From Actinomycetota bacterium (GTDB lineage Bacteria > Actinomycetota > Acidimicrobiia > Acidimicrobiales > RAAP-2), in contig JAJPJV010000018.1 in assembly GCA_021324045.1 (NCBI GenBank), positions 1-64,000 on the forward strand: 64,000 bases of DNA, written 5' to 3'. A program made the position numbers and the translations under genes. Under the pieces are notes generated by a model that saw only the letters and a list, made by a program, of their open reading frames with translations, did not search any database and was not told where the DNA came from. Shown piece by piece: positions 60,000-64,000 of the stretch; positions within the stretch are counted from its first letter, which is position 1; the number at the start of each line of letters is the position of its first letter.

Positions 60000-60074
60000 T
60001 GGCGGGTAGTTCAATGGCAGAACGCCTGACTTTGGATCAGGAGGTTGGAGGTTCGAGCCCTCCCCCGCCAGCCA
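60000..60074 (+). tRNA. tRNA-Gln, anticodon TTG
   Basis: Acceptor arms TGGCGGG (60000-60006) and CCCGCCA (60064-60070), discriminator G, encoded CCA (60072-60074). The anticodon loop CTTTGGA places TTG at 34-36, and GGTTCGAGCC is the T-loop. The integrase of an integrative element starts reading back toward it from 61.3 kb, so its 3' end is the probable attachment site. Confidence 0.95.
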
Positions 60075-60153: not shown

Positions 60154-61293
60154 TCAGCCAAGGAGTGTCGCGGAGAGCCGTTCGCCGGCGTCGCGCGCCA
60201 TGCTCGGCACGGTGTGGACGTAGAGGCTCATGGTGATCGCCGGCGTCGAGTGACCGGCCAGTTCTTGAATCACTTTGAGCGGCACACCGGCTTTTGCCAT
60301 GAGCGAGAACGCGGTGTGGCGCAAGTCGTGGAGTCGGATGCGCGGAAGGTCGGCAGCCTTTACCAGCGCGTCGAAACGATCGCCCCAGAAATCGGGGTGG
60401 TACGGACGGCCCAGCTCGTCGCAGAAAACGAATCCGCTGCTCTCCCAAGCCTCACCGGCTCGCAACCGCTCGGCCTTTTGCGCCTTTTCGTGAGAGCGAA
60501 GGAGCGCCACGAGTTTGTCGTCGAGTGGGATCGACCGGCGTCCTGAGGCGGTCTTGGGCTGCGAGGGAACGGGTTTGCCGTCGACGGCGAGCAGGGTCGA
60601 GACGATGGCGAGGGACTCGTTCGCGAGGTCCACGGCATCCCACTTGAGCCCGGCCAGCTCTCCTCGGCGTAGTCCGCGTGTCAGGAACAGGACCCAGGCT
60701 GCTTCGAGCCGGTCCCCGCGAACGGAGGCCAAGAATTGGCGAGCCTGCTCTTCGTCCCACGTCCGCATCTCTGCGCGTTGCACTCGCGGCCGCTCCACCC
60801 CGACCAGTGGATCGCGACTGACGATCCCGTTGCGCGCGGCCCATTTCGTGGCTGCCTTGAGCACGCTCACGGCCACTTGGACCGTCCGTTCCGATAGGCC
60901 CTCGCGTCCAGTGGCGCTCCTTGTGGTGCGTAGGCGCTCGACGAGCGACGAGACGTCAGCGGGTGTGAGCGCGGCCACCTTCTTTGCACCGAGCGCGGGC
61001 ACCAGGTACCACTCGATCGCTCCCTGGTACTGCGCCAACGTCGACGGACGAAGCCCGCGGGAGCGCTGCGCCGGAATCCAGTGGTCGGCGAGGAGCTGGC
61101 GCACCGTCAGTGGCTGGTCGGGCGTCCAGCGCCCCTCGACGACCGCACCAAGCACCGAGGCGAGGTGGCGCTGCGCGTCGCGCCGGGTGCGAAATCCGCC
61201 TTTGGTGTGCTGTCGTCGCTTGCCGGTAGCGGGGTCGCGGGTCTCCCAGTACGCGGTGTACGTGGTCCCACGCTGGCGAACGAATCCACGCAT
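60154..61293 (-). CDS. int: Tyrosine-type site-specific integrase
   Basis: Phage-type integrase, 379 residues. N-terminal arm-binding domain about 1-60 (with WETRDPATGKRRQHTKGG), SAM-like core-binding domain about 60-165, catalytic domain about 175-379. Active-site residues: Arg209 in GLRRGELAGL, His322 and Arg325 in HDLRHTAF, His348 in LAGHST, and nucleophile Tyr358 in SLYVH. The stop is close to tRNA-Gln, the usual arrangement of a tRNA-targeting integrase. Start is 1 bp after the end of the upstream HTH gene, so the two form one operon. Confidence 0.95.
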   Translation of the reverse strand: MRGFVRQRGTTYTAYWETRDPATGKRRQHTKGGFRTRRDAQRHLASVLGAVVEGRWTPDQPLTVRQLLADHWIPAQRSRGLRPSTLAQYQGAIEWYLVPALGAKKVAALTPADVSSLVERLRTTRSATGREGLSERTVQVAVSVLKAATKWAARNGIVSRDPLVGVERPRVQRAEMRTWDEEQARQFLASVRGDRLEAAWVLFLTRGLRRGELAGLKWDAVDLANESLAIVSTLLAVDGKPVPSQPKTASGRRSIPLDDKLVALLRSHEKAQKAERLRAGEAWESSGFVFCDELGRPYHPDFWGDRFDALVKAADLPRIRLHDLRHTAFSLMAKAGVPLKVIQELAGHSTPAITMSLYVHTVPSMARDAGERLSATLLG

Positions 61294-61953
61294 CTATTGC
61301 TCCTCCTCGGCGATGAGTCCCAGGTGCTTGGCTCGTTTCACGAGGCGGGCCGTCTGTGCTTTCGACCTCGCCGTGAGCCGCGCCGTCTCAGCGATCCGTT
61401 GACGAGGATGCGTCCGCCCTGCCGCGATGTAGGCCTGCGCCACCCGGCGAAGCTCGTCTTTAGGGACGCCGCGCCGGCCAGGACTGCGCGGGCGCGAGCT
61501 GGCAGGAAGGGCGGGAATAGACGAGCGGTCGAGCTGCACGGCGGGGAGCACCATGCGGAGTGCATCATCTGCGTACCGAGCGCCGAGGTCGACGAGGCGG
61601 GCAAGGGGGACCTGGCGCAACATGCGAGCCTCCAAAGGCTCTGTCGTCTCAATCAGGATGCCGGTGGCGACGGTACGGCCACCGCGGATCGCGAGTCGGA
61701 CCCAGGTTGCCGCCTTCTCACCTGCGAACGCCACCCAACGCTCCGTCTTCTCGCCATCAGCGAGTTGATCCCAGATCTCGGGCGTGATGGCGCGGACACC
61801 GCCCTCGGGCTCGCCATCGTCGCCAAGCGCCACCAATCGCACAGGGAGATCGTAGGGAGTGCGCGGTGACAACACAACGTCATGTACTGGCTTTCTGCTA
61901 ATCGGGTCGTCGAAGTCAATCCAAGAAACGGCGCGCTCGTTTCTCGGTGACAC
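61294..61953 (-). CDS. Element-encoded protein with C-terminal helix-turn-helix
   Basis: A 219-residue protein. Residues 1-150 form a domain of unknown type (WVRLAIRGGRTVATGILIET is a strand-rich stretch). The C-terminal 70 contain GRRGVPKDELRRVAQAYIAA and TARSKAQTARLVKRAKHLGL, a helix-turn-helix widespread in actinobacterial elements next to integrases. The GTG start lies in the loop of a 12-bp perfect hairpin (61931-61969), suggesting post-transcriptional control or repressor binding. Adjacent to int (0-bp gap). Probable regulator of element excision; inference. Confidence 0.7.
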   Translation of the reverse strand: MSPRNERAVSWIDFDDPISRKPVHDVVLSPRTPYDLPVRLVALGDDGEPEGGVRAITPEIWDQLADGEKTERWVAFAGEKAATWVRLAIRGGRTVATGILIETTEPLEARMLRQVPLARLVDLGARYADDALRMVLPAVQLDRSSIPALPASSRPRSPGRRGVPKDELRRVAQAYIAAGRTHPRQRIAETARLTARSKAQTARLVKRAKHLGLIAEEEQ

Positions 61954-61969
61954 CGTTAAACGAGCGCGC
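61931..61969. promoter_or_regulatory. 12-bp perfect inverted repeat around a start codon, with a nested palindrome
   Basis: GCGCGCTCGTTT (61931-61942) and AAACGAGCGCGC (61958-61969) are perfect complements, separated by 15 bp that hold the GTG of the HTH gene. Inside the loop CGGTG (minus strand) faces CACCG around one T. A third CTCGTT lies at 61977-61982. In the leftward mRNA this gives a stable hairpin that buries the start codon; in DNA it could be a repressor operator. Confidence 0.6.
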
Positions 61970-61986
61970 TAAGTGTCTCGTTCCGT

Positions 61987-62001
61987 TACAAACCATTTGT
62001 A
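61987..62001. promoter_or_regulatory. 15-bp palindrome in the divergent control region
   Basis: TACAAA (61987-61992), spacer CCA, TTTGTA (61996-62001), a perfect 6-bp inverted repeat. AT-rich within GC-rich surroundings. Candidate operator for the rightward genes. Confidence 0.45.
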
Positions 62002-62251
62002 CGGTGATCGCATGATGTCAAACATCACTCAATTACCTGCTCATATCTATTTGACGGACCACCCGGCACTTTCCGTGCCCCGGGAGGCGCGAAAGATCGA
62101 GCGCAGCGACACGCCAACTTGTGACTTCGCTGAGGCCTCCGGGGTGCATGAGCAAATGGTTCCCCGGGACTCAGCGGTCCACCGAAGTGACGCGCGGTCT
62201 TCTCGCTCACGCGCTGTCCCTGCTCGCTCGCAGCATCGCGGGGGTGCGGTA

Positions 62252-62449
62252 ATGACTGCCACCTACACCGCTGCTCAAGTCGCCGAGCTCATGGGCGTGA
62301 GCGAATGGGTCATCTATGAGTGTGTGCGTCGCGCTCAGCGTGGCGAGGACGCAGGCCCCATCGGCACGATGGCCATCCGGGTCGGGCGCCGGCTCGTCTG
62401 GCCCCGTGCTGCAATCCAACGGCTCCTAGTCGTGGAGGAGCAGCAGTGA
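62252..62449 (+). CDS. Excisionase/MerR-like small HTH protein
   Basis: A 65-residue winged-helix protein of the excisionase (HTH_17) type: YTAAQVAELMGVSEWVIYEC is the recognition helix-turn-helix, and RVGRRLVWPRAAIQRLL is the wing and final helix. Such proteins direct excision by integrases or act as small repressors. ATG 62252 is the family-like start; the frame is open to 61973 but the upstream text is not excisionase-like. Overlaps the next small ORF by 1 bp (TGATG). Confidence 0.8.
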   Translation: MTATYTAAQVAELMGVSEWVIYECVRRAQRGEDAGPIGTMAIRVGRRLVWPRAAIQRLLVVEEQQ

Positions 62450-62619
62450 TGCTCGAGGTGCTTTGCGACGGGATCCTCGGCCTCGACCTGGCCTGGCACC
62501 ACGGGATCAGCCGTGTCGCGCTCGCCTGCGCCGTTGATAGCTCCGGCTCACTGAACGAGCGGGCCTCCGTCGACACCGACGACAGTTTTGACACGGTCGA
62601 AGGGAGGTGGTCGCGATGA
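62449..62619 (+). CDS. 56-residue ORF between excisionase and primase
   Basis: ATG 62449 shares its first base with the excisionase stop (TGATG) and its stop overlaps the primase start (ATG 62616). The protein begins MLEVLCDGILGLDLAWHHGI and is acidic in its second half. The tight packing supports translation; I recognise no family. Could also be a spacer without function. Confidence 0.45.
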   Translation: MLEVLCDGILGLDLAWHHGISRVALACAVDSSGSLNERASVDTDDSFDTVEGRWSR

Positions 62620-63428
62620 CGCTTGCCGAGTTCGCTCAGTGGTACGCCAGCTCGGGATACGCGGTGTTCCCCGTTCAGCCTTGCGACAAGCGTCCCCTCG
62701 GGCGCCTCGCGCCCCACGGTCTGCGCGACGCGACGACCGATGCCACCCAGATCGAGCGGTGGTGGCGCGCCGAGCCGGAGGCGAACGTCGGCGTGGTCAC
62801 GGGACGCTGTTTCGACGTGCTCGATGTCGACGGTCCAAAGGGATGGCGTTCACTGGCTCGTCTCGTGGAAGCGCACGGTTGCCTGGAGATCGGCCCCACC
62901 GTTGCCACGCCCGGCGGAGGGATGCACTACTACTACCGGCCCACGGGGATCGGGAACCGCGCAGGCTTCGTGCCAGGGATCGATTGGCGCGGCAAGGGCG
63001 GCTACGTCCTTGGGGTCGGGTCCGTCCACCCGAACGGCGGCGTTTACGAGTGGGCGGTCACACCGCACGAGATGCCGCTTCGCGACGCGTGCCCCTGGCT
63101 CGTCGAGCTGCTCGGACCATCGGCGGCTCCGATCGCTTCGCCACCGGTCCTTCGGCGGACCGTTGCCGAGCCATATGGCCGTAGCGCACTCGAAGCCGAG
63201 TGCGCTCGGGTCTTGAGTGCCTCGATCGGAACGAGAAACGCCACCCTCAACGTCGCCGCCTACAACCTGGCCCAGCTCATCGCTGCAGGAGCGCTGCAGG
63301 CTCGCGAGGTTGCCGACCGGCTGCTTGTGGTTGCAGCACAGGTGGGCCTTGGCGAGCGCGAGGCGCGTCGCACCATCGCCTCGGCCTTCCGGGCCGGCGC
63401 GACCCAACCTCGGCGGGTGCCCTTGTGA
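62616..63428 (+). CDS. PrimPol-type bifunctional DNA primase/polymerase
   Basis: Archaeo-eukaryotic-primase-fold (AEP) protein of about 270 residues. N-terminal YAVFPVQPCDKRPLGRLAP is the prim-pol opening; catalytic acidic residues are Asp67, Asp70 and Asp72 in FDVLDVDGP; the later GGGMHYYYRPTG carries the conserved His. A C-terminal helical extension (about 190-270) contains ATLNVAAYNLAQLIAAGAL. ATG 62616 is supported by a GGGAGG ribosome site 8 bases away. Pairs with the RepA-like helicase downstream (4-bp overlap) as the element's replication module. Confidence 0.87.
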   Translation: MTLAEFAQWYASSGYAVFPVQPCDKRPLGRLAPHGLRDATTDATQIERWWRAEPEANVGVVTGRCFDVLDVDGPKGWRSLARLVEAHGCLEIGPTVATPGGGMHYYYRPTGIGNRAGFVPGIDWRGKGGYVLGVGSVHPNGGVYEWAVTPHEMPLRDACPWLVELLGPSAAPIASPPVLRRTVAEPYGRSALEAECARVLSASIGTRNATLNVAAYNLAQLIAAGALQAREVADRLLVVAAQVGLGEREARRTIASAFRAGATQPRRVPL

Positions 63429-64000
63429 GCATGCCCGACGACTTCGATCGTGTGGTCTTCGAGCTCGCATCGCGGGCACCCGCGCACAACGACCGGGCCG
63501 TGGAAGGGATGATTCCCGAGCCCACGACGTGGGCGCCCGTCGATCTCGCCCCCGTCGTGCTCAGAGACGCAACGGTAGACCCGCCCAGCGTACTTGCTCG
63601 CTCGGATGGTGTTTATCTGCTCTATCCCAGCCGCGTGCACGCGTTCCAAGGGGAGCCAGAGAGCCTGAAGTCCTGGGCTGCTCAGCTCGCCGCCATGCAG
63701 GTGATCTCGTGGGGTGACGACGTCTTGTACATCGACTTCGAAGACACTGAAGTCGGTGTCGTGTCGCGTTTGCGTGCCATGGGGCTCGCAGCTGGGTCGA
63801 TCGCGTCCCATCTCGTCTACATCCGTCCCGATGAGCCGCTCCGGATGCGTCACAATGCGCTCACGCCGGCAGGTGTCGAGTTTGAGAATCTCTTGGCCAG
63901 GCGGTCGTTCGCGCTCTGTGTCATCGACGGCGTCACCGAGGCGATGGCGATCGAAGGTCTCGACCTGTTGAGTAATGCGGACGTTGCCACGTGGATACGC
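63425..64000 (+). CDS. RepA-like AAA ATPase (partial at right edge)
   Basis: GTG 63425 overlaps the primase stop and the frame stays open to the window end (192 codons). The Walker A is HAFQGEPESLKSWAAQ, with Leu where GK(S/T) usually has Gly, as in related RecA-fold helicases of actinobacterial elements. The Walker B text VLYIDFEDTEVGVV follows at the right distance, and later FALCVIDGVTEAMAIEG. Together with the primase it can account for element replication. C-terminus not available. Confidence 0.8.
   Translation, partial: MSMPDDFDRVVFELASRAPAHNDRAVEGMIPEPTTWAPVDLAPVVLRDATVDPPSVLARSDGVYLLYPSRVHAFQGEPESLKSWAAQLAAMQVISWGDDVLYIDFEDTEVGVVSRLRAMGLAAGSIASHLVYIRPDEPLRMRHNALTPAGVEFENLLARRSFALCVIDGVTEAMAIEGLDLLSNADVATWIR

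Follow-up and report, generated by a model that had tools for sequence, protein, structure and literature searches.

Background

Stl of SaPIbov1 binds palindromes in the region between the divergent regulator and rightward genes, where its sites overlap the promoters (PMC4936726). The locus described here resembles this system (stl-str and str-xis of SaPIbov1) in having a divergent control region with an integrase gene on one side and excision and replication genes on the other, and in carrying an inverted-repeat site in the gap between the regulator and the rightward gene (PMC4936726; PMC6695447). The sites themselves differ, since Stl recognises 6-bp repeats that are separated by 5 bp and overlap promoters, whereas the palindrome here measures 39 bp and is situated upstream of the two putative -10 boxes. 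Furthermore, Stl has its helix–turn–helix (HTH) at the N-terminus, whereas the regulators of the relatives of our element have it at the C-terminus. The SaPI Stl system may be taken as a functional precedent, and not as a demonstrated relative; the likeness to phage-inducible chromosomal islands lies in gene layout alone.

A second point of comparison is provided by SLP1-like AICEs, with which the element shares a tyrosine integrase at a tRNA gene, an xis-like gene, and a Prim-Pol gene that precedes a second putative replication gene (PMC3218068). The combination that characterizes AICEs, a tyrosine integrase at a tRNA together with a Prim-Pol/Rep module, is found here. An FtsK/SpoIIIE-type Tra would also be expected of the class, whereas our element is known only up to the point where the contig stops (65565), its other end being outside the assembled sequence. 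AICEs have been reported in Actinomycetales, whereas the present host is listed under Acidimicrobiales. Finally, Actinobacteria commonly have leaderless genes in which a TAnnnT motif precedes the start by about 12 bp (PMC3160421); here, TACGAT and TACGGT stand exactly 12 nt before the GTG at 61842 and the ATG at 62012, respectively.

The element and its genes

The window, that is, the whole stretch of 64,000 nucleotides analysed, comes from an Actinomycetota bacterium (contig JAJPJV010000018.1). At its end it takes in the left-hand portion of an integrative element inserted at tRNA-Gln(TTG), in which the integrase and a regulator are read leftward, and an Xre-like gene, xis, Prim-Pol and AAA genes rightward (Table 1). 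A search for attR as the second end of the element found only the tRNA copy.

Table 1. Features of the element and its control region (positions in the window).
Feature	Position	Strand	Remarks
tRNA-Gln(TTG), presumed attachment site	60000..60074	+	
Tyrosine integrase	60154..61293	-	PF00589, E 6.7e-22
Regulator gene, longest frame 219 aa	61294..61953	-	directly upstream of int; predicted C-terminal HTH, from homologous integrase-linked proteins
GTG, likelier (leaderless) start of the regulator gene, 182 aa	61840..61842	-	TACGAT at -12 and coding signal
Putative -10 box TACGAT, leftward leaderless promoter	61849..61854	-	12 nt 5' of GTG 61842
39-bp near-perfect palindrome	61931..61969	none	candidate (probable) protein-binding site
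GTG, start codon of the earlier note	61951..61953	-	first possible start in frame; probably not the real one
Third CTCGTT	61977..61982	+	rightward promoter, -35 to -30 region; no more copies than expected by chance
TACAAACCATTTGTA (TACAAA-CCA-TTTGTA)	61987..62001	none	overlaps rightward -10 box
Putative -10 box TACGGT, rightward leaderless promoter	62000..62005	+	12 nt before ATG 62012
Xre-like gene, apparently frameshifted	62012..62252	+	TAA of the C-terminal frame overlaps the xis ATG
Excisionase-like HTH_17 protein (xis)	62252..62449	+	E 2.5e-4, below the Pfam curated cut-off (weak)
Prim-Pol replication protein	62616..63428	+	PF09250, E 3.6e-39
AAA_25 ATPase	63425..64000	+	runs beyond the window to contig position 64567

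The regulator itself has no database family match, and near relatives of the 219-aa protein were found in none of the viral contigs, genome contigs, phages, plasmids and 100 related genomes searched; its predicted structure (mean pLDDT 38.5) was unusable. Neighbours of homologous integrases nevertheless yielded eight position-equivalent proteins that share a C-terminal HTH pattern, several of which match HTH_23/HTH_28 weakly, whereas the window protein does not. In several of these eight relatives, an Xre gene, an xis gene or both are read in the direction opposite to the regulator.

As for the Xre-like gene of the window, its N-terminal half fits the relatives in one frame and its C-terminal half (from SKW) in another. 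Close to the recognition helix it is about 11 nt shorter than the homologous locus L017, and either half by itself gives a weak match.

A near-perfect palindrome in the divergent control region

In the gap between the divergent integration and excision/replication genes, we find exactly the arrangement GCGCGCTCGTTT CT CGGTG A CACCG TT AAACGAGCGCGC, in which the outer 12-bp arms (61931-61942 and 61958-61969) are perfectly inverted, and the inner 5-bp arms, CGGTG at 61945-61949 and CACCG at 61951-61955, flank the central base at 61950, with a 2x2 mismatch between the two arm sets. This bears out the earlier note's description of 12-bp hairpin arms around a nested CGGTG-T-CACCG, the T being the minus-strand reading of A61950 on the plus strand. 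Overall, 17 of the 19 pairs match. The resulting palindrome score of 13 is the highest in the window, where the runner-up reaches 10; ten Markov-shuffled 64-kb sequences gave best scores of 8-11, all lower, and nowhere else in the window does a perfect 12-bp arm pair enclose a 15-nt loop. The dyad thus exceeds chance as judged against shuffles and background windows. A terminator at the palindrome was looked for, and none was found.

The earlier note took absence of the palindrome from related elements as counting against its reading. None of the eight homologous loci carries it, and viral and genome collections gave either no match or only hairpins without the inner CGGTG/CACCG, so that the sequence of the palindrome is unique among the relatives and scanned records. 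This lack in relatives is compatible with an operator specific to the element. Such non-conservation would also fit a palindrome devoid of current function, a relic or chance occurrence such as an operator left over from an Xre-like regulator that has since lost its intact gene, and the Xre-like gene does appear to be frameshifted. We consider this rather unlikely, given that the arms are still perfect across 12 bp, far beyond what the shuffles produce.

The start codon of the leftward regulator

The earlier note had placed the start codon of the regulator within the hairpin and proposed, as one possibility, an RNA switch on the leftward transcript. The GTG at 61953 does lie inside the palindrome and is the first start following a stop; as the real start it is doubtful, and several lines of evidence favour GTG 61842 instead. 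Mean coding score in the long frame is -0.03 over codons 1-40 and +0.25 over codons 41-219, a contrast that is not decisive alone, as several of the training frames also begin low. Among six candidate starts, only GTG 61842 (codon 38) has TAnnnT at the leaderless position. The window contains 5282 NTG trinucleotides, of which 24 show this arrangement, such that the chance of a hit among six candidates is a few percent. GTG 61953 has neither TAnnnT at -12 nor a Shine-Dalgarno sequence.

The homologous integrase-linked regulators show the same signal. In five of the eight (L017, L028, L045, L037 and L048), exactly one start within the first 50 codons bears TAnnnT, against a base rate across the homologous loci of 64/10509 NTG (0.6% per NTG), and a Shine-Dalgarno sequence precedes none of these five starts. 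Two extra homologues, L082 and L084, have one candidate start each with TAnnnT at -13/-12; four others (L083, L085, L087 and L088), in which the reading frame is not settled, were excluded. A mild point for the longer frame is that the residues W..DP.S in its N-terminus are similar to L017 and L045. Because of the coding potential, the leaderless promoter signal and the homologues taken together, we favour GTG 61842, 111 nt downstream of GTG 61953, as probably the real start. The leaderless signal shared by these regulators may also serve as a practical aid for assigning their start codons.

This bears directly on the proposed RNA switch, in which the leftward mRNA would start upstream of 61969 and the hairpin would hide GTG 61953 until opened. 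The predicted RNA hairpin is indeed very stable (-26.7 kcal/mol, z -5.3) and the GTG in it would be paired, but the plus strand folds equally well (-27.1), as expected for a DNA dyad. A consensus search recovered no sigma-70-like promoter at or upstream of the palindrome, a search for alternative pairings or structures returned none, and in no relative does this hairpin sit at a start codon. The rightward ATG 62012 likewise looks leaderless. If both genes are leaderless, then the palindrome is untranscribed DNA within an intergenic region of about 169 bp, and the stable RNA hairpin would therefore form in neither mRNA. With the probable start shifted in this way, we regard the RNA switch as very improbable. 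It appears that taking the first possible start codon for the real one gave a DNA palindrome the look of an RNA switch, a tempting misreading that the present analysis corrects.

A candidate operator between two transcription units

The reading that we favour, and hold to be the probable one with some reserve, is that the palindrome is an element-specific DNA-binding site that separates a pair of divergent transcription units, both probably leaderless. The leftward unit would comprise the regulator and int, with a transcript start at about GTG 61842, and the rightward unit xis and Prim-Pol behind the disrupted Xre-like gene, starting at ATG 62012. A dimeric regulator encoded by the element probably binds the dyad; the likeliest candidate is the product of the gene next door, with the C-terminal HTH predicted from its relatives. 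Once bound, it would govern the choice between staying integrated and excising or replicating. The centre of the dyad (61950) stands at -62 relative to the rightward start and at -108 relative to the leftward one, and its main target would therefore be the rightward promoter. The dyad would act as an operator or as an activator site, mainly on expression of xis and Prim-Pol, with either sign of regulation being conceivable.

The operator that the earlier note offered as its other possibility is hence plausible, as suggested by a strong palindrome in a divergent control region and by a repeat at nearly equal distance in L017 (see below). We would regard the palindrome as a real and new example of an ordinary kind of site, with a role that is likely ordinary as well. 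What it may offer is the probable location of the switch between integration and excision in such elements of a little-studied bacterial group.

The notion of a cooperative operator fares less well, as it rests on a further half-site and a small palindrome that both occur at chance frequency. The half-site, CTCGTT, is present where it was described, in addition to the copies contained in the palindrome arms, but it is one of 52 occurrences of CTCGTT/AACGAG in the window; some 6-mer is found three times in a 170-bp control region with a shuffle P of 0.22, and such a threefold 6-mer is present in 46% of background windows. Similarly, the perfect TACAAA-CCA-TTTGTA repeat exists, yet the window holds 28 repeats of its class (6-bp arms that match perfectly, separated by 3 nt). 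We have thus set aside a three-copy half-site for the window, although such repeats are significant in L015, L028 and L045.

CTCGT boxes beyond the AAA gene

The half-sites also invite another explanation, namely autoregulation of the kind known from iteron plasmids. The element's replication protein would recognise CTCGT boxes at two places, an origin beyond the AAA gene and the palindrome. Consistent with this, 14 CTCGT boxes are clustered at contig positions 64552-64815, just beyond the AAA gene, and CTCGTT recurs in the palindrome arms and at 61977. However, 13 of the 14 cluster boxes read CTCGTC, and this difference in the sixth base from the CTCGTT of the control region makes the connection a lead only. 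Moreover, three CTCGT per 100 bp are found elsewhere in the window too, and the initiator is hypothetical. We judge this explanation to be quite unlikely for the palindrome.

The cluster itself (contig C47 64552-64815, corresponding to L004 4552-4815), which is outside the window, includes three 9-bp tandem copies of GGACGAGAT and a 30-bp palindrome, and looks like an iteron-type replication origin.

Control regions of related elements

We find no sequence common to the window and the control regions of its relatives, and no k-mers shared across the nine control regions beyond shuffles. What recurs, in part of the family, is the presence of an element-specific repeat. L017 has an inverted repeat with 16-bp arms, CAGGGTTTCCGGAATC / GATTGCGGAAACCCTG, unrelated in sequence to the window palindrome and centred at -60.5 from the rightward leaderless ATG 2207 (TACAGT at -12), while L045 has 9-bp arms close to the rightward start. 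Of 723 background windows, 5 (0.7%) contain an inverted repeat with a score of 13, versus two of the nine control regions, a count that includes the window, which was chosen for its repeat; six of the nine lack a significant inverted repeat. One could extend this to an unnamed family of integrase-linked C-terminal-HTH regulators with leaderless promoters, whose target dyads are specific to each element and diverge rapidly. These dyads would sit some 60 bp before the leaderless start on the rightward side, in a position like that of class I activators, and the element would be switched on by activation and not by loss of repression. We put this forward as a long shot.

Direct repeats are also present among the relatives. 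In the control region of L028 (2773-2913), CACGGTTCC occurs threefold and GCATAGTTGAGGC twice, likely an operator or iteron array, and threefold repeats are likewise found in L015 (CCGTTAC) and L045 (CCTAGCC). The remaining relatives gave no significant repeat. Two other palindromes lie near integrase homologues: one of 47 bp, ACGAGCGCCTCGACCGCCTCCGTCTCGGAGGCGGTCGAGGCGCTCGT, at 346-392 of L006 (contig C50 of the same genome), near a distant homologue, and a near-perfect one of 38 bp, GGTAGTTCAAGCTCCGCCATGACGGAGCTTGAACTACC, at 3116-3153 of L021, near another.
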